Assembly: GCF_021431925.1 (NCBI RefSeq)
Contig: NZ_CP090371.1
Coordinates: 1,488,001-1,552,000, forward strand
Reading direction: 5' to 3'
DNA from: Halobaculum sp. CBA1158
GTDB lineage: Archaea > Halobacteriota > Halobacteria > Halobacteriales > Haloferacaceae
DNA: 64,000 bases
The position numbers and the translations under genes were made by a program. The notes beneath the pieces were generated by a model, which saw nothing but the letters and a program-made list of their open reading frames with translations, was not told the DNA's origin and made no database searches. Below are positions 5,463 through 13,665 of this stretch, in pieces (within the stretch, counting starts at the first letter, position 1; every line of letters begins with the position of its first letter).

Positions 5463-6659
5463 TTACACGTCGCCGCGGATCGCCGCGGACAGCTCCGCCC
5501 GCGAGAACAGCTCACCCGAGAACCGCTCGGGGAAGTACAGCGTCGCGAACCGCTCGAGGTTGAACAGGTGCTGGATCGGGCCCTGATAGATGGGACCGCC
5601 GCGGAACACTCGCCCCTCCTGCACCGCGGTGAGCTCCGAGGCAACCTCGTGGTCCTCCATGAACGAGACGACGGTGTCGCGGAACTCCGCCTCGGTCTTC
5701 GCCTCGTGTCCCCGCAGGAGGATCGAGTCGGGGTCCACCGACAGCATCGTCTCGTAGTCGATCTGTCCTCGCTCGTTCGTCGACAGCCCCGAGACGCCGG
5801 AGCCCGAGAGCGCGTCGGCGATCCCGAGGTCCCGGAACTGCTTTTTGTTCGTTCCGCGGTCCGAGAGCCGGTACGGGTAGAACCGCTCGGGGTCGTCGCC
5901 CGCGCCGAAACACAGCAGGGCGTTCGGCCGGTCGTCGGCGCTCGGGAGGCTCGCGCTCACCGTCGCGACGGCGTCGTCGTGTACCGCCTTCACCGCCTCG
6001 TAGCGGTCCTCCCGTCGGAACACCTGCGCGACCTTCTCGAACGCCTCGTACAGCGTGTAGTACCGGTACTCGTGCCAGCCGTCGGTGCGTCGGAATATCG
6101 TGTTGGCGACGAACGGTCCCACGTCCTCGGCGACGCCGTCCACGTCGGACTGCTCCAGTCCGAAGCCGTTGTTGACGAGCCATTGCGGGTCGATCAGGTG
6201 CACGTCGCTGTCCAGCTCGTAGAACAGCTCCCGGTCGACGGCGAACGAGTCGCCGAGCAACTGCGTCGGCTCGGCGGCGACCGAGACGCCGTCGAGCTCG
6301 TCGTAGTGATCGGTGTAGAACCGCGCCGCGTTCCCGACCGCAAGCAGGTCCTCGCCCTTCCCGAGAGCGACCGCCATGTCCGCGTAGCCCGACTCGTAGA
6401 CGGAGAACGTCTCGGGCACCTCCTGAAACGTCACGTCGCCGGCGGGTGCCATCGTCACGGTGTAGCTGGTGTCCTCCGGCGTGGCCGTCCCGGTCGCCGT
6501 CGACTCGGGCGTCGATTCCCCGGAGGTGTCGGTCTCGGTCGGGTCGTCGCCGCCGCTTTGTCCCGAACAGCCCGCGAGGAGACCGCCCGCGACGAGCGCG
6601 CTTCCGTACTTCACGTAGTCACGTCGCGTGAACCGATCGGTCGGATCAGGATCCGTCAT
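5463..6659 (-). CDS. Siderophore/iron ABC transporter substrate-binding lipoprotein
   Basis: A 398-residue extracellular binding protein. Residues 11-31 hold a Tat-type signal (TRRDYVKYGS) ending in a lipobox LLAGC, so it is exported folded and lipid-anchored at Cys31. A Thr/Ser/Glu-rich linker follows to about residue 65. The rest resembles the BtuF/FepB-type class III binding fold: SVYESGYADMAVALGK, then LIDPQWLV and LSVDPDSILLRGHE. The ligand is inferred to be a ferric siderophore or similar iron chelate. No permease or ATPase lies next to it, so it must use partners elsewhere. The start sits a few bases from a double DtxR-like palindrome, which suggests metal-responsive repression. Confidence 0.85.
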   Translation of the reverse strand: MTDPDPTDRFTRRDYVKYGSALVAGGLLAGCSGQSGGDDPTETDTSGESTPESTATGTATPEDTSYTVTMAPAGDVTFQEVPETFSVYESGYADMAVALGKGEDLLAVGNAARFYTDHYDELDGVSVAAEPTQLLGDSFAVDRELFYELDSDVHLIDPQWLVNNGFGLEQSDVDGVAEDVGPFVANTIFRRTDGWHEYRYYTLYEAFEKVAQVFRREDRYEAVKAVHDDAVATVSASLPSADDRPNALLCFGAGDDPERFYPYRLSDRGTNKKQFRDLGIADALSGSGVSGLSTNERGQIDYETMLSVDPDSILLRGHEAKTEAEFRDTVVSFMEDHEVASELTAVQEGRVFRGGPIYQGPIQHLFNLERFATLYFPERFSGELFSRAELSAAIRGDV

Positions 6660-8813: not shown

Positions 8814-9281
8814 TCATGCCGATGCGGCCGACTCCGATCCGTCGCCGCGCGGCAGGCCGAACTCGACTTCGATCCTGACTGTGTCGTAGGGAACGTACGG
8901 CTTCTTCGCGCGGCCGCCCTCCTCGAAGTGAACGATGCCGTGATCGGCCAGCAGGTACAGATCGTCGTGCACGTCGTGCACGTCACGGTCGAGCCGGTCG
9001 GCCAGCGCGCGGATGCTCTCGGGCGGATGCTCCATCACCTCCTCAAGCAGTTCCATCCGGCGGTCTGTGAGCAGTTGACGGAGCCTCGAACGGTCCTCGA
9101 AGTTGACGACGTGGGGAACCTCCTCGCCTTGCTCCCACCGTTCTGCGCGCTCAATAGCCGCCGTCTGTGCCTGCTCGGCTGGGAGCGACGTGATGCGGAG
9201 GGTCGAGGGGTACTCGATCTCCTCCGGGTCGGTCGTGAACTCGTCGTGTGTGGGTTCGGTGTCAGTCGGTTCGTCGCTCAT
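8814..9281 (-). CDS. HTH DNA-binding protein, HVO_A0114-like (putative antitoxin/regulator)
   Basis: A 155-residue protein with an acidic N-terminus (residues 1-25) and a winged-helix region near residues 75-130: RRMELLEEVMEHPPESIRAL, then ADRLDRDVHDVHDDLYLLAD. A wing follows in VHFEEGGRAKKPYVPYD. This matches the haloarchaeal HVO_A0114/COG4190 type of predicted transcriptional regulator. It overlaps the end of the upstream small gene by 20 bases (9262-9281), so the two are translationally coupled. Such pairs are usually read as toxin-antitoxin-like modules, with this protein as the DNA-binding antitoxin. That role is inferred from arrangement and family. Confidence 0.8.
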   Translation of the reverse strand: MSDEPTDTEPTHDEFTTDPEEIEYPSTLRITSLPAEQAQTAAIERAERWEQGEEVPHVVNFEDRSRLRQLLTDRRMELLEEVMEHPPESIRALADRLDRDVHDVHDDLYLLADHGIVHFEEGGRAKKPYVPYDTVRIEVEFGLPRGDGSESAASA

Positions 9282-9779: not shown

Positions 9780-10877
9780 CTACTCGACCGTCAGTATCCG
9801 CTCGGGCATGCCGCCCAGCAGCCCGCCGAAGGCCGTCTCGTACCCCTCATGTCGGGCGATCTGCGGCCACACGGTCGGCGTCAGCGTCAGTTCGTCGCCC
9901 GACTCGACGCTCGCGCCCGCCAGCGCCGCGCCGTAGTGATACGAGAGGTCCGGGTCGAGCGTCCGCGTCAGTTCGCCCGAGAACACCGTCTCGCCGTCGC
10001 GCTCGTGGGTCGCCTCCAGCCCCATCGCGGGGATGAGCATCCGGTTATACGGCGTCCGCGCCGACACCGCGAGGTACGGGCCCTCGTCGTCGACCCCCGC
10101 GGGCGGCTCGTCCATCACGGTTGCGACGAGCACGGCGTCGTTGCTGTTCACCTCGCCGAGCACCTCGCCGGGGAGCGCCTCGACCGCCGGCGCGGTCCCG
10201 TCGGGGACCATGTCCATCTCCATGCGGTCGACAGCGCCGGCCTCGCCGGCGTCCGCGAGCGTCCGAAATGAGATGTCGTCGCGGTCGGACTGGCTGTACT
10301 CCATCTCGACGGGGATGTCAGCGGGGTCGCCGAAGCGGTCCCGGTAGGCGTCCGTTCGACGGGTGCGAACCCCGCCGACTGAGACGTTCACGGTGTAGGT
10401 CCCGTCGCCCTCGAGCCCGAAGTTCGCGCCGTAGTGGACGCCCATCGGCTGAGAGAGCATCGGGTAGATCACCTCCTGGGAGACGAGCGAGCCGTCGCGT
10501 TCGATCTCGACGGACAGCCCCGTCTCGGGGAGCACCTGCCCGGTGTCGGCGTCCCAGACGCTCGCCATCAGGTGCACGTCGTCGCCCTCGGCCACGTCGG
10601 TTCGCTCGACCGCCTCGCCGTTGACGTTCCAGAAGCGGTGGGCGTACGAGTAGAACACGCCGACCCGGTAGTCGCCGGACTCGGCCATCCCGCCCATCGC
10701 CATTCCCTCGACGTGCGTCGGGAGGTACACGCCGTCCGGACGGTCCTCGACGATCGGCGGCTCGCCGGCGATCCCCTCCTCGGAGCTGAGATCGAAGCCG
10801 AGACAGCCCGCGAGCCCGCCGGTCCCAGCGACCGCGCCGGCCGCGCCGGCGCTAGCGAGGAACGTTCGTCTGTCCAT
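9780..10877 (-). CDS. Tat lipoprotein with two P19-like (Fe2+/Cu transport protein) domains
   Basis: A 365-residue exported protein. The Tat signal (MDRRTFLASAGAAGAV) leads to a lipobox LAGC with Cys25. Residues about 45-175 look like the P19/Tp34 iron-transport family: Met/His-rich THVEGMAMGGMAESG, SYAHRFWN, and YPMLSQPMGVHYGANFGL. A second copy appears at about 265-345, with YNRMLIPAMGLEATHERDG and LDPDLSYHYGAAL. The two HYGA motifs (148-151 and 314-317) and their flanking strands support an internal duplication. P19 proteins bind Cu/Fe outside the cell and assist iron uptake. The family may correspond to haloarchaeal DUF7350. Neighbours are a small His-containing membrane protein and a DyP-like lipoprotein. 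Confidence 0.8.
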   Translation of the reverse strand: MDRRTFLASAGAAGAVAGTGGLAGCLGFDLSSEEGIAGEPPIVEDRPDGVYLPTHVEGMAMGGMAESGDYRVGVFYSYAHRFWNVNGEAVERTDVAEGDDVHLMASVWDADTGQVLPETGLSVEIERDGSLVSQEVIYPMLSQPMGVHYGANFGLEGDGTYTVNVSVGGVRTRRTDAYRDRFGDPADIPVEMEYSQSDRDDISFRTLADAGEAGAVDRMEMDMVPDGTAPAVEALPGEVLGEVNSNDAVLVATVMDEPPAGVDDEGPYLAVSARTPYNRMLIPAMGLEATHERDGETVFSGELTRTLDPDLSYHYGAALAGASVESGDELTLTPTVWPQIARHEGYETAFGGLLGGMPERILTVE

Positions 10878-10992
10878 ACCTCGGTTCGGGACCGCCCACG
10901 AAAGGGGGTTCTGGTACGCCAGTCGAACGCCGGAGGCGACCGCGAGCGATGTGCCGAAACCGAGTTATGCGACCGCCGCCTCGAGTCGATCG

Positions 10993-11280
10993 ATGAGTCG
11001 GATCTCGGCCGCAGTCGTCGTCGGCTGGCTGCTCGCGTGGCTGCCGGGCGGTGCGCTCGCACACCCCGGCCACCCGGGCGGGACGCCGACGCCCACGGGT
11101 CCGATCGCCGGCGCGTCGCCGACGGGACTGGGCGTCGCCGTCGCCGGGGGCATCGTGCTCACCGGGGCGCTGTTGCTCGCGAACGAGAACGTCCTCACCG
11201 ACCGTGCGCGGAGCGCCGGCGTCGGCGTCGGCGCGGCGCTCGTGGCGGCCGGGATCGTGCTCGCGTTCGTCCGCGTCTGA
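10993..11280 (+). CDS. Small exported/membrane protein with His-Pro-Gly motif
   Basis: A 95-residue protein divergent from the P19-like lipoprotein gene. The ATG at 10993 gives a clean signal peptide (MSRISAAVVVGWLLAWLPGG) with probable cleavage near ALA, followed by HPGHPGGTPTPTGP. Two further hydrophobic segments follow (GLGVAVAGGIVLTGALLLAN and the C-terminal VGVGAALVAAGIVLAFVRV). A GTG start at 10951 would add 14 residues before the signal and is less likely. The function is unknown. The outward-facing His residues and the position between two metal-linked genes suggest a part in metal handling, which is inference. Confidence 0.65.
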   Translation: MSRISAAVVVGWLLAWLPGGALAHPGHPGGTPTPTGPIAGASPTGLGVAVAGGIVLTGALLLANENVLTDRARSAGVGVGAALVAAGIVLAFVRV

Positions 11281-11359
11281 CGCCGCCGCGAGCCCGGACA
11301 CCGCTCCCGTCGCCGGCGACGACGCCGAGCGCCTCGACGCGGTCGTCGCGCCCGTCGAG

Positions 11360-12724
11360 TCACCCTTCGCTTCCGTCGGGCGTCGGCAGCGCACGGAGGC
11401 CCCGCGGCGGGACGAGGAAGTAGCCGCGGTGGCGGAGGAAGATGTACTCGAGGATGCCGTTGTTGACCCGCTGGCGGACCGCCGGGGTCGCGTCCGTGGC
11501 GTCCACGCCGTTCATCGCCCGACGGACGGCTTCGAACTGGTCGATCGACCGCTGGAGCGACGGGAAGTGCAGGCTCGCGATGTCGTCGTCGGCCGACTCG
11601 AAGTGGCGGCGGAGCAGGAGGGGGGTTCCCTCCTCGTCGCGGTTGGCGCGGGCGGCCTTCTGGGCGTGGCCGACGCGACCGTACTCCTCGGCGTCCTCGA
11701 CGACCGTGTCGAGAAAGCGGTCGATCCCGGAGTCGTCGCCGAGGTTCGTCCCGACGCCCTCCACGAGGTTCTCCTCGGCGTGCCCCGGCGAGAACATCTC
11801 CGTCACCTGCTGCTCGAAGCTCTGCTCGCCGTACCAGTCGGCGAGGCGCTGTCGCCAGTTGCCCATCGACTCGGTGGTGCCCTCCGCGAACGGCCCCTCG
11901 CCGATGGCGACGGCGTCCTCGGTCGCCTGGTTGCCCCTGAAGCCGGCGGCGAAGCCCATGAACAGCGGGGCGTCCTCCGGCACGGGGTTGGGCTCCGGTA
12001 CGCCCGCGAGGTCGTCGGCCTCCTCGTGGGGCATCCCTGGGTCGAAGAAGCCCGTCCGGCGGTCGTCCTCGGTCAGCGCGTCGGTCAGCGCCGACGGGAA
12101 GTCGACGCCGTTGGCCTCGCTCGCCTCCCCCGTGAGCGCCTCCTCCGCGGCGAGCACGGCGTCGGGGCGGTCAGAGGCGAGGTGGACGAGCACGTCCTGG
12201 GTGTCGAACTCGGGCGTCTCGTAGTCCGCAAGCGGCGTCGGCTCCGGAAGCGACACGTCCTCTGGGACCGACAGCTCTGCCTCGAAGCGGTCGAAGTACG
12301 CCGGCGAGTAGCCGACCGTGTGAAGCAGCCCCTCGTGGCTCCACTCGTACGCCTCGTCGAGCGCGTCGAGGGCCTCGCGGACGGCCTCGCGCTCGGAGTC
12401 GCTCGGCGGACCGTCCTCCGGGAGCGAGAGGTACAACAGGGTCTGGTGACGGGGAAGCTGCCAGTTTCCGGCGTCGTCGGTACGCACGAAGTCGTTCCAG
12501 GCGTACTGACGGTCGGGATGGGCGTCGGGGCCGTCGCCCCCGGGGACCGGATCGGGGTCGTCGAGTCGGTCGAGACACGCCGAGAGCCCGGCCGCGCCGC
12601 CGACGGCAACGGCGGCCTTCAGCGCGTCGCGTCGAGTCACGCCGTCGACGGCGCGTTCGCGGGAGTCGCGGGGGTCGCGACTCTCGCCTGCGTCGCCGGC
12701 AGCCTCGCCGTCCGCGTCGGTCAT
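11360..12724 (-). CDS. DyP-type/EfeB-like Tat lipoprotein with altered GxxDG motif
   Basis: A 454-residue exported protein. Twin Arg at 31-32 (TRRDALKAAVAVGGAAG) is followed by a lipobox ending at Cys50. The body follows the dye-decolourising peroxidase plan: RHQTLLYLSL (about 92-101), LADWYGEQSFEQQVTEMFSP, the proximal haem-ligand region GRVGHAQKAARANR with His353, LHFPSLQRSIDQFEAVRRAM, and a C-terminal YFLVPPRG. The family's catalytic GF.DG motif reads GFAAG (257-261), so the distal Asp appears to be Ala. In Efe systems the DyP partner handles haem iron or oxidises Fe2+. Here it sits close to a P19-like lipoprotein. It may correspond to haloarchaeal DUF7405. Confidence 0.78.
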   Translation of the reverse strand: MTDADGEAAGDAGESRDPRDSRERAVDGVTRRDALKAAVAVGGAAGLSACLDRLDDPDPVPGGDGPDAHPDRQYAWNDFVRTDDAGNWQLPRHQTLLYLSLPEDGPPSDSEREAVREALDALDEAYEWSHEGLLHTVGYSPAYFDRFEAELSVPEDVSLPEPTPLADYETPEFDTQDVLVHLASDRPDAVLAAEEALTGEASEANGVDFPSALTDALTEDDRRTGFFDPGMPHEEADDLAGVPEPNPVPEDAPLFMGFAAGFRGNQATEDAVAIGEGPFAEGTTESMGNWRQRLADWYGEQSFEQQVTEMFSPGHAEENLVEGVGTNLGDDSGIDRFLDTVVEDAEEYGRVGHAQKAARANRDEEGTPLLLRRHFESADDDIASLHFPSLQRSIDQFEAVRRAMNGVDATDATPAVRQRVNNGILEYIFLRHRGYFLVPPRGLRALPTPDGSEG

Positions 12725-12808
12725 ACCGCGACTAGCGGCGTGGCGGCCAAGGGGGTTGTGGTGCGGGCGTCGAACGCGGCGACGCGCTCGCGTCGCCGTG
12801 ATCTCGCG

Positions 12809-13345
12809 TTACTCCAAGACCGCGTCCACCAGCCGGGTGAACCGGTCGAGCAGCCGGTCGGGGAGAGACGGCTCGATCCGCCGAAGCGACCGCGCGGCCG
12901 CCTCGGCGTCGACGAGCGCGAGCGTGACGCGACCGCGCGGGCCGCGCCGCTTCTCGACGACATCGGCGTCCACGAGTCCGTCGAGGTGGTGCTCTAACGT
13001 GCTGCGGGCGACGCCGACCGCGTCCGCGACCGCGTCGGGACGGGCCGGTCCATCGAGAAGTTCGACGACCGCGTCGCGGGCGGTCTCACGCCGAAACAGC
13101 GCCACCCGTCGCCGCTCTTCGGGGTCGATCGATGGGTCGAAGTAGTGCGTGCGTCCGGACACCGCCTCGCCGACGACGCGCTCGGCGCGCGCGAGCCGGC
13201 GGAGGTGGTACTGGGCCTGGCCGGGAGCCAGGTCGAGCCGGCGGACGAGTTCGTTGAAGTGGATCCCCGGATGCGCCCGGACGAACGCGGCGATGCGGTC
13301 GCGGGTGGAGGGGTCCCGGCGCTCGACGTTGCCTCCGCCGGTCAC
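12809..13345 (-). CDS. Double winged-helix transcriptional regulator
   Basis: A 178-residue cytosolic DNA-binding protein with two HTH domains in series. The first is at about 12-60 (RDRIAAFVRAHPGIHFNELV, then RRLDLAPGQAQYHLRRL). The second is at about 85-140 (ARDAVVELLDGPARPDAVAD, then AVGVARSTLEHHLDGLVDAD). This is the ArsR/MarR-like two-domain layout common in haloarchaea. It overlaps by 4 bases (13342-13345) with the upstream small membrane-protein gene, so both are made from one message. The target and signal are unknown; the neighbouring membrane protein may act as sensor. Confidence 0.85.
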   Translation of the reverse strand: MTGGGNVERRDPSTRDRIAAFVRAHPGIHFNELVRRLDLAPGQAQYHLRRLARAERVVGEAVSGRTHYFDPSIDPEERRRVALFRRETARDAVVELLDGPARPDAVADAVGVARSTLEHHLDGLVDADVVEKRRGPRGRVTLALVDAEAAARSLRRIEPSLPDRLLDRFTRLVDAVLE

Positions 13346-13665
13346 GATGTCGCCTCCGTCCGGATCGTTCGCGCGTAGTACACGGCCCCGAGCACCAGCC
13401 CCGCCATCACCACGTCGAGGAGGTGCTCGCCGAAGTGGTGCGCCTCCGCGCCGACGAGACCGACGGCCGTGGCGGTCGCCAGGCCCGCCCGCGCGACGAG
13501 CGTCCCGAGCGCCAGCGCGACGAGCAGGTACGACCGCGAGCGCCGGCGGGCGAACGCGGCGAGCGCGAGGCCGAGCAGTCCCGCTCCGGCGACGCCGCCG
13601 GCGACGACGACCAGGGCGTACGCGACGCCGTGTGCGCCGGGAGCCACGTGGAGCGGGCCGATCAT
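13342..13665 (-). CDS. Small four-helix membrane protein (DUF7471-like)
   Basis: A 107-residue membrane protein that opens MIGPLHVAPGAHGVAYALVV. About three hydrophobic helices are followed by a last segment with AEAHHFGEHLLDVVMAGLVL and YYARTIR at the C-terminus. The HHFGEH cluster could bind a metal or a haem but this is unproven. The ATG at 13665 is preferred; the frame stays open far upstream through trkH sequence, which is shadow. ATGA overlap with the double-HTH regulator gene points to a coupled two-gene unit. I believe it belongs to haloarchaeal DUF7471. Confidence 0.72.
   Translation of the reverse strand: MIGPLHVAPGAHGVAYALVVVAGGVAGAGLLGLALAAFARRRSRSYLLVALALGTLVARAGLATATAVGLVGAEAHHFGEHLLDVVMAGLVLGAVYYARTIRTEATS

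Follow-up and report, generated by a model that had tools for sequence, protein, structure and literature searches.

Haloarchaeal respiration and denitrification rely on copper proteins (halocyanins, haem–copper oxidases, NirK and NosZ), and to our knowledge little is known of how copper is delivered outside the cytoplasm in these organisms. The Sco, NosL, NosD and DsbD families have copper-delivery or disulphide-reduction functions that are used in CuA and CuZ assembly, and FTR1 is the permease common to the FetMP, FtrABCD and EfeUOB systems. In Streptomyces lividans, the genes for Sco and ECuC accompany that of the DyP-type protein DtpA, which is required for maturation of the copper-dependent GlxA and was proposed to oxidize Sco-bound Cu(I) (PMC4736821). 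What defines a histidine-brace copper site is that the N-terminal histidine of the mature protein serves as a ligand (PMC10952591, PMC7529816). Here we describe a locus of Halobaculum sp. CBA1158, at positions 9780–12724 of a stretch of 64,000 nucleotides (the window; contig NZ_CP090371.1, positions 1,488,001–1,552,000), which encodes two lipoproteins, DUF7350 and DUF7405, related in predicted fold to P19 proteins and to DyP peroxidases respectively. Judging from sequence, this locus has a probability of about two in three of forming the core of a haloarchaeal regulon for copper trafficking outside the cytoplasm.

Results

A shared cis-element upstream of DUF7350, DUF7405 and copper-delivery genes

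The three open reading frames of the locus (9780–10877, 10993–11280 and 11360–12724) are real, and all of them are picked by a gene caller that relies on codon usage and was trained on related loci. With the elements discussed below, they are arranged as follows.

9780–10877, minus strand: DUF7350 protein of 365 amino acids, a twin-arginine translocation (Tat) lipoprotein whose two P19-like domains lie in tandem; candidate carrier of metal (copper) outside the cytoplasm
10902–10927, minus strand: cis-element TTCGACTGGCGTACCAGAACCCCCTT, 50 bp 5′ of the DUF7350 start codon
10993–11280, plus strand: small exported or membrane protein of 95 amino acids, predicted mature N-terminus HPGHPGG; partner specific to the Halobaculum group
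11360–12724, minus strand: DUF7405 protein of 454 amino acids, a Tat lipoprotein with a predicted DyP-peroxidase fold
12749–12774, minus strand: cis-element TTCGACGCCCGCACCACAACCCCCTT, 50 bp 5′ of the DUF7405 start codon

In four Halobaculum-like loci, the upstream regions of DUF7350 and DUF7405 have in common the sequence TTCGACnnnCGnACCAsAACCCCCTT, 50 bp 5′ of the start codon. At three mismatches or fewer, this 26 bp element occurs exactly twice in the host genome (3.32 Mb), at 10902–10927 and 12749–12774, and the reversed pattern, used as a control, has zero sites in the same genome. The element was looked for 5′ of the small HPGHPGG gene and was not found there. A first matrix, built from eight Halobaculum sites and used with a threshold score of 12, was exceeded upstream of 29/96 DUF7405 and 34/91 DUF7350 genes and in 3 of the 1697 other upstream regions in related loci; with a refined matrix, trained on these two families, the counts above the same threshold were 34/96, 43/91 and 14/1697, most sites lying at −50 to −52. 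When 292 Halobacteria genomes were searched for exact matches to a degenerate form of the element, 132 of them had a match, compared with one match in all for the reversed control.

In other Halobacteria the element is found 5′ of Sco1, NosL, NosL–NosD fusion, DsbD_2 and Thioredoxin_4/DsbA-like genes, and also 5′ of DUF7471, of a DUF7350–DUF7282 fusion, and of the genes for the membrane or secreted protein families c16, c115 and c458. Its distance to the start of these targets is about −50, or greater for genes whose predicted start probably lies downstream of the true one. A single plastocyanin-like gene is preceded by a weaker match (6.6 bits), and for about eight of the sites examined the target is unassignable, distant or unrelated. 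The element was absent 5′ of ZntA-like ATPases (0/8), and no recognized iron transporter is among the element-bearing genes. A preliminary description of the locus, made from the window alone, had linked the gene set to metal handling, and this link is upheld.

Pairs of back-to-back elements lie between divergent genes in G067, G245, G003, G035, G093, G234 and G012, and at L211:1770–1870 such elements separate DUF7405 from the gene of a c115 protein with the predicted N-terminal HSGTTHAGTPHW. Loci L064, L065 and L066 have a partial second TTCGAC...ACC copy 5′ of the main element, upstream of DUF7350.

Distribution of DUF7350 and DUF7405

Among the 292 genomes, DUF7405 is present in 261 and DUF7350 in 254; a tally of the two lists gives 253 genomes with both families, eight with DUF7405 alone, one with DUF7350 alone and 30 with neither. 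The host genome itself carries three DUF7405 and four DUF7350 copies. Gene neighbourhoods were surveyed in 77 loci from named genomes, drawn from the 80 most similar loci, so that close relatives are over-represented in the counts. DUF7350 lies near DUF7405 in 57 of these 77 loci, against a chance expectation that we estimate at about 1% (some two DUF7350 genes per 3.5 Mb genome, windows of 21 kb), and this proximity is therefore not due to chance. Also near DUF7405 are an HVO_0163-type helix–turn–helix (HTH) gene (26 loci), DUF7471 (21), DsbA-like (19), DUF7282 (16), DsbD_TM/CcdA-like (12), TlpA-like (12) and Sco1 (10) genes. Our literature search found no paper naming DUF7350 or DUF7405.

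An identical block of 21,242 bp (L138, L142 and L143), with DUF7405, two DUF7350 genes and a P1B ATPase gene, occurs in records of Haloarcula japonica, Halorussus marinus and Halosegnis rubeus; its identity in three genera reflects either contamination or a transfer in the recent past. The DUF7405/DUF7350/P1B ATPase module is found again on pNG600, where it adjoins a conjugation-type gene.

The DUF7350 lipoprotein

The DUF7350 protein starts with a Tat twin-arginine motif (MDRRTFLAS) followed by a lipobox (LAGC), the cysteine of which is kept in at least 90% of its relatives. It matches Pfam DUF7350 (E=7e-54) and, above the cut-off of 21 bits, PF10634 Iron_transport (22.8 bits), and a DUF7350 profile search finds FtrA (E 5e-5). 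Its N-terminal domain is repeated at the C-terminus, as the two copies align with each other in hhalign (E=3e-8). In an AlphaFold model made from an alignment of 44 relatives (mean predicted local distance difference test score, pLDDT, 89.2), residues 57–201 adopt a predicted P19 fold, with a VIA Z of 13.8 to FetP over 134 residues at 2.6 Å. The modelled domain 1 also matches the P19 fold in Foldseek (E 6e-6) and resembles the Helicobacter pylori copper protein CrdA (VIA Z 10.9), and the named structure matches include the copper-bound FetP variants M90I and E46Q.

In the 44 sequences, M59, H80, H102, M104, M140, M145 and H148 are invariant in domain 1, as are H314 and H343 in domain 2. Two of these residues, M140 and H148, align with the FetP copper-site residues M90 and H97 in the segment PMxx...HYGxN. 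P19 H132 has no clear counterpart in domain 1, and domain 2 carries the invariant H343 in ARHEGYE. That the invariant set consists of His and Met only suggests, at the level of sequence, that the ligand of DUF7350 is Cu(I) rather than iron, and the name ‘iron transporter’ given by automated annotation is probably misleading for proteins of this type. In one locus (L122:5218–7788) a single lipoprotein of 856 amino acids is a DUF7350–DUF7282 fusion with a Met-rich linker, and its gene is preceded by the cis-element.

The DUF7405 lipoprotein

The DUF7405 protein likewise has a Tat twin-arginine motif (VTRRDALK) and a lipobox (LSAC), the cysteine of which is invariant among relatives, and it matches Pfam DUF7405 with E=6e-158. 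Its AlphaFold model, from an alignment of 54 relatives (mean pLDDT 86.8), has a predicted DyP fold, with a VIA Z of 26.8 to the Thermomonospora curvata DyP (7rmu; 309 residues, 3.4 Å) and of 25.6 to EfeB (3o72). None of the Pfam DyP models matches the window protein, Dyp_perox_C is matched by 18 of the 54 relatives (best E 8e-6), and hhalign of the DUF7405 profile with the single EfeB sequence aligned the Tat signal only. The host-genome paralogue that exceeds the Dyp_perox_C cut-off (24 bits) is the divergent third copy (G000:C1:2607962–2608936, L003), which has no DUF7350 beside it.

A MAFFT alignment of Escherichia coli EfeB with 56 relatives indicates that DUF7405 keeps the haem-ligand and distal-arginine positions and has lost the distal aspartate. 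The proximal haem histidine (EfeB H329, here H353) and the distal arginine (EfeB R347, here R372) are both present in 56/56 sequences, and the aspartate of GXXDG (EfeB D235) is replaced in all 56, by Ala in 39, Ser in 15, Val in one and Thr in one; the residue is A260 in the window protein. The consequences of such a loss differ among the enzymes described: an Asp variant of DtpB forms compound I as the wild type does, Arg being the key residue (PMC8463360), and D171N abolishes activity of the Bjerkandera adusta enzyme (PMC8197335). A DUF7405 homologue on a Streptomyces plasmid (L166:6980–8056) has no Tat signal and no P19-like neighbour, and its distal Asp is also gone (GFHSG).

The small exported protein and other partners

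The protein of 95 amino acids is predicted to have a signal peptide, cleaved at ALA|HPGHPGG, and one or more additional transmembrane segments. Its gene, for which an alternative GTG start exists at 10951, is oriented away from DUF7350 and towards DUF7405. Motifs and coordinates agree with the preliminary description, which saw a doubled P19-like and a DyP-like protein, both Tat lipoproteins, on either side of a small exported HPGHPGG protein. The co-occurrence of the three genes, the lack of which would by its own account have refuted it, holds for DUF7350 and DUF7405 (253/292 genomes, 57/77 loci) and fails for the small gene, which the locus survey found in four Halobaculum-like loci only, the window included. 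The HPGHPGG protein is thereby ruled out as an obligate third component.

In other genera, unrelated partner proteins have the same predicted mature N-terminal histidine. Counted with cleavage positions predicted by eye, a histidine right after an AxA-type cleavage position is found in 33 of the 44 signal-bearing members of five unrelated partner families (the HPGHP protein, DUF7282, c16, c115 and c458), compared with 16 of 865 other signal-bearing proteins, about half of these 16 being due to the GGAHCxGMCGP motif of DsbD_2.

Neighbouring genes

Upstream of DUF7405, on the same strand, lie two genes that recur in the neighbourhood survey.

12809–13345, minus strand: winged-helix regulator with an HVO_0163-type HTH and an ArsR-like HTH; candidate regulator of the module
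13342–13665, minus strand: DUF7471 small membrane protein, overlapping the HTH regulator gene by 4 bp

Given this overlap and the gap of 84 bp between the HTH regulator gene and DUF7405, the three genes DUF7471, HTH and DUF7405 may form a single operon. The HTH protein is likely to be the regulator of the element. On its other side, DUF7350 adjoins a candidate toxin–antitoxin pair, composed of a TumE-type toxin homologue (PF20126; 9262–9570, minus strand) and an overlapping HVO_A0114-type HTH gene (8814–9281, minus strand). About 3 kb from the gene set is a gene for a siderophore-type ATP-binding cassette substrate-binding lipoprotein (PF01497; 5463–6659, minus strand), which the element does not connect with the set.

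Discussion

We propose that DUF7350 would bind copper, probably Cu(I), at the cell surface through its invariant His and Met residues, and that DUF7405 would bind haem and either alter or hold the redox state of the copper bound to DUF7350, by analogy with what was proposed for DtpA and Sco-bound copper (PMC4736821). The partners with a mature N-terminal histidine (HPGHP protein, DUF7282, c16, c115 and c458) might then hand copper onward or into the membrane, its destination presumably being cuproproteins such as the oxidase, NosZ and the halocyanins, and the HTH protein encoded at 12809–13345 would probably regulate the set by acting on the element. Known folds are here combined in a new way, in what is best described as a haloarchaeal copper-handling set. 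A broader proposal, to which we give even odds, is that this is an undescribed class-wide copper-delivery regulon with an activator element of its own, in which a DyP haem protein devoid of the Asp, a doubled P19 protein and several unrelated N-terminal-His proteins constitute a new extracytoplasmic relay that replaces the bacterial routes of the PCuAC/CopC type.

Several observations weigh against a copper-trafficking regulon. DUF7350 has no secure equivalent of the copper-site Glu of P19 (E44/E46), E46 falling opposite M104 or G98 in two possible alignments. A high-scoring element is missing from most DUF7405 and DUF7350 genes (it is present for 34/96 and 43/91 with the refined matrix), and these counts are partly circular, as DUF7405 and DUF7350 sites themselves served to train that matrix. 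For the gene set no permease was identified, and Sco1 was looked for in the host genome and not found. Lastly, plasmid copies on pNG600, Haloferax pBNX82-2, a Halobaculum salinum plasmid and the C3 replicon of the host adjoin P1B ATPases (ACPCAFVISTP) that score best with zinc/cadmium/lead models, and a CDF transporter lies beside the pNG600 copy, so that a broader metal role is possible.

These plasmid copies argue for a broader heavy-metal (Zn/Cd/Cu) tolerance module, in which the surface lipoproteins would bind toxic metal and cooperate with P-type ATPases and CDF efflux; the weak ZIP match beside the plasmid copy of the host and the block of 21 kb identical across three genera point the same way. 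We nevertheless find such a module quite unlikely, because the ATPases have no upstream element (0/8) and the near-universal chromosomal copies adjoin Sco1, CcdA-like and DsbA genes, not ATPases. The possibility that DUF7405 acts at the cell surface as a haem peroxidase, in defence against peroxide or oxidative stress, DUF7350 being P19-like in structure only and the metal link indirect, would agree with a DyP fold that has its proximal His and distal Arg, and with compound I formation in DtpB being unaffected by loss of the distal Asp (PMC8463360). It would not account for an element common to Sco1, NosL and DsbD_2, nor for the conservation of the metal-ligand residues of DUF7350, and is in our opinion very unlikely.

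The other metal to be considered is iron. A variant of P19/EfeB iron acquisition, in which DUF7350 binds Fe(II), DUF7405 oxidizes the iron or extracts it from haem, and another permease stands in for FTR1, is suggested by the kinship of the two folds with FetP/FtrA and EfeB, by the annotation of plasmid relatives as ‘iron transporter’ and by the iron-siderophore-type binding protein at 5463–6659. To judge from the title of a reference in PMC10783030, bacterial P19 requires copper for iron transport, and the copper signals would then be compatible with an iron role. However, FTR1 (PF03239), the absence of which from the window had been pointed out in the preliminary description, was also found in 0/116 Halobacteria genomes, with 4/14 controls positive, and the element-bearing genes concern copper delivery, with no recognized iron transporter. 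On these 116 genomes, FTR1-dependent iron uptake is rejected for the class; this removes the canonical iron mechanism, and not iron binding itself. Taken together, the lack of FTR1 in the 116 genomes and the element shared with copper-delivery genes support copper better than iron, and the iron variant is unlikely. The suggestion that the locus acquires iron in the manner of FetMP or EfeUOB is, in view of the same two observations, not supported. As for the wider idea of a new form of iron or copper acquisition, its copper half is better supported than its iron half, and since no permease was identified, ‘handling’ or ‘delivery’ describes the gene set better than ‘uptake’.

With these results two near-universal families of unknown function, DUF7350 and DUF7405, gain a predicted fold and a probable pathway. 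The 26 bp element defines a regulon that can be tested, with c16, c115, c458, DUF7282, DUF7471 and the HVO_0163-type regulator as new candidate members, and the existence of DyP proteins that lack the catalytic Asp bears on the role of DyP proteins such as DtpA and EfeB in metal trafficking.

Two described haloarchaeal cases deserve mention. The SCO operon E6P09_05560–05575, induced in denitrifying Haloferax mediterranei (PMC11218638) and weighed as a candidate for this locus, has a cupredoxin–SCO–thioredoxin–CcdA order different from that of the Haloferax DUF7405 locus, and was for that reason not used as evidence. The Halobacterium salinarum Tat protein OE2816F (B0R587), which is raised by Cu and Ni and the deletion of which causes Ni sensitivity (PMC6978704), is a possible family member and is taken as a lead only.

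Compared with P19, FetP and FtrA of the FetMP and FtrABCD systems, DUF7350 shares the predicted P19 fold of its domain 1 and the copper-site segment with M140 and H148, but has tandem domains, the form of a Tat lipoprotein and additional invariant Met and His residues; E44/E46 and H132 are not clearly conserved in its domain 1, and the FTR1 permease is missing from the 116 Halobacteria genomes searched. The Campylobacter FetMP–FetABCDEF system resembles the haloarchaeal loci in that a P19 protein gene is near genes for thioredoxin-like proteins, whereas Campylobacter cannot do without FetM, a member of the FTR1 family that the 116 Halobacteria genomes do not have, and the Campylobacter system is iron-regulated (PMC10783030). 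With the DyP peroxidases EfeB, DtpA and DtpAa, DUF7405 has in common the modelled fold over about 300 residues, the proximal His, the distal Arg and export by the Tat pathway; it differs by the Asp of GXXDG being A, S, V or T in 56/56 sequences, by being a lipoprotein and, for the window protein, by escaping the Pfam DyP models. Several haloarchaeal partner families have the predicted mature N-terminal His of the histidine-brace proteins CopC, YcnI and lytic polysaccharide monooxygenases (PMC10952591, PMC7529816), but, besides their cleavage site being a prediction, no sequence match between them and these proteins was found. In its logic the haloarchaeal set resembles the Streptomyces sco–ecuC–SLI_4212–dtpA operon, where the genomic setting also ties a DyP protein to Sco and to further copper proteins outside the cytoplasm (PMC4736821). 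In Halobacteria a genetic association of the DyP-like protein with Sco and other copper chaperones is seen (Sco1 in 10/77 loci; element 5′ of Sco1, NosL, NosL–NosD and DsbD_2), and not in the host, which has no Sco1. The haloarchaeal carrier differs from that of Streptomyces in being P19-like and not PCuAC-like, and the haloarchaeal genes are linked through a shared cis-element as much as through an operon.

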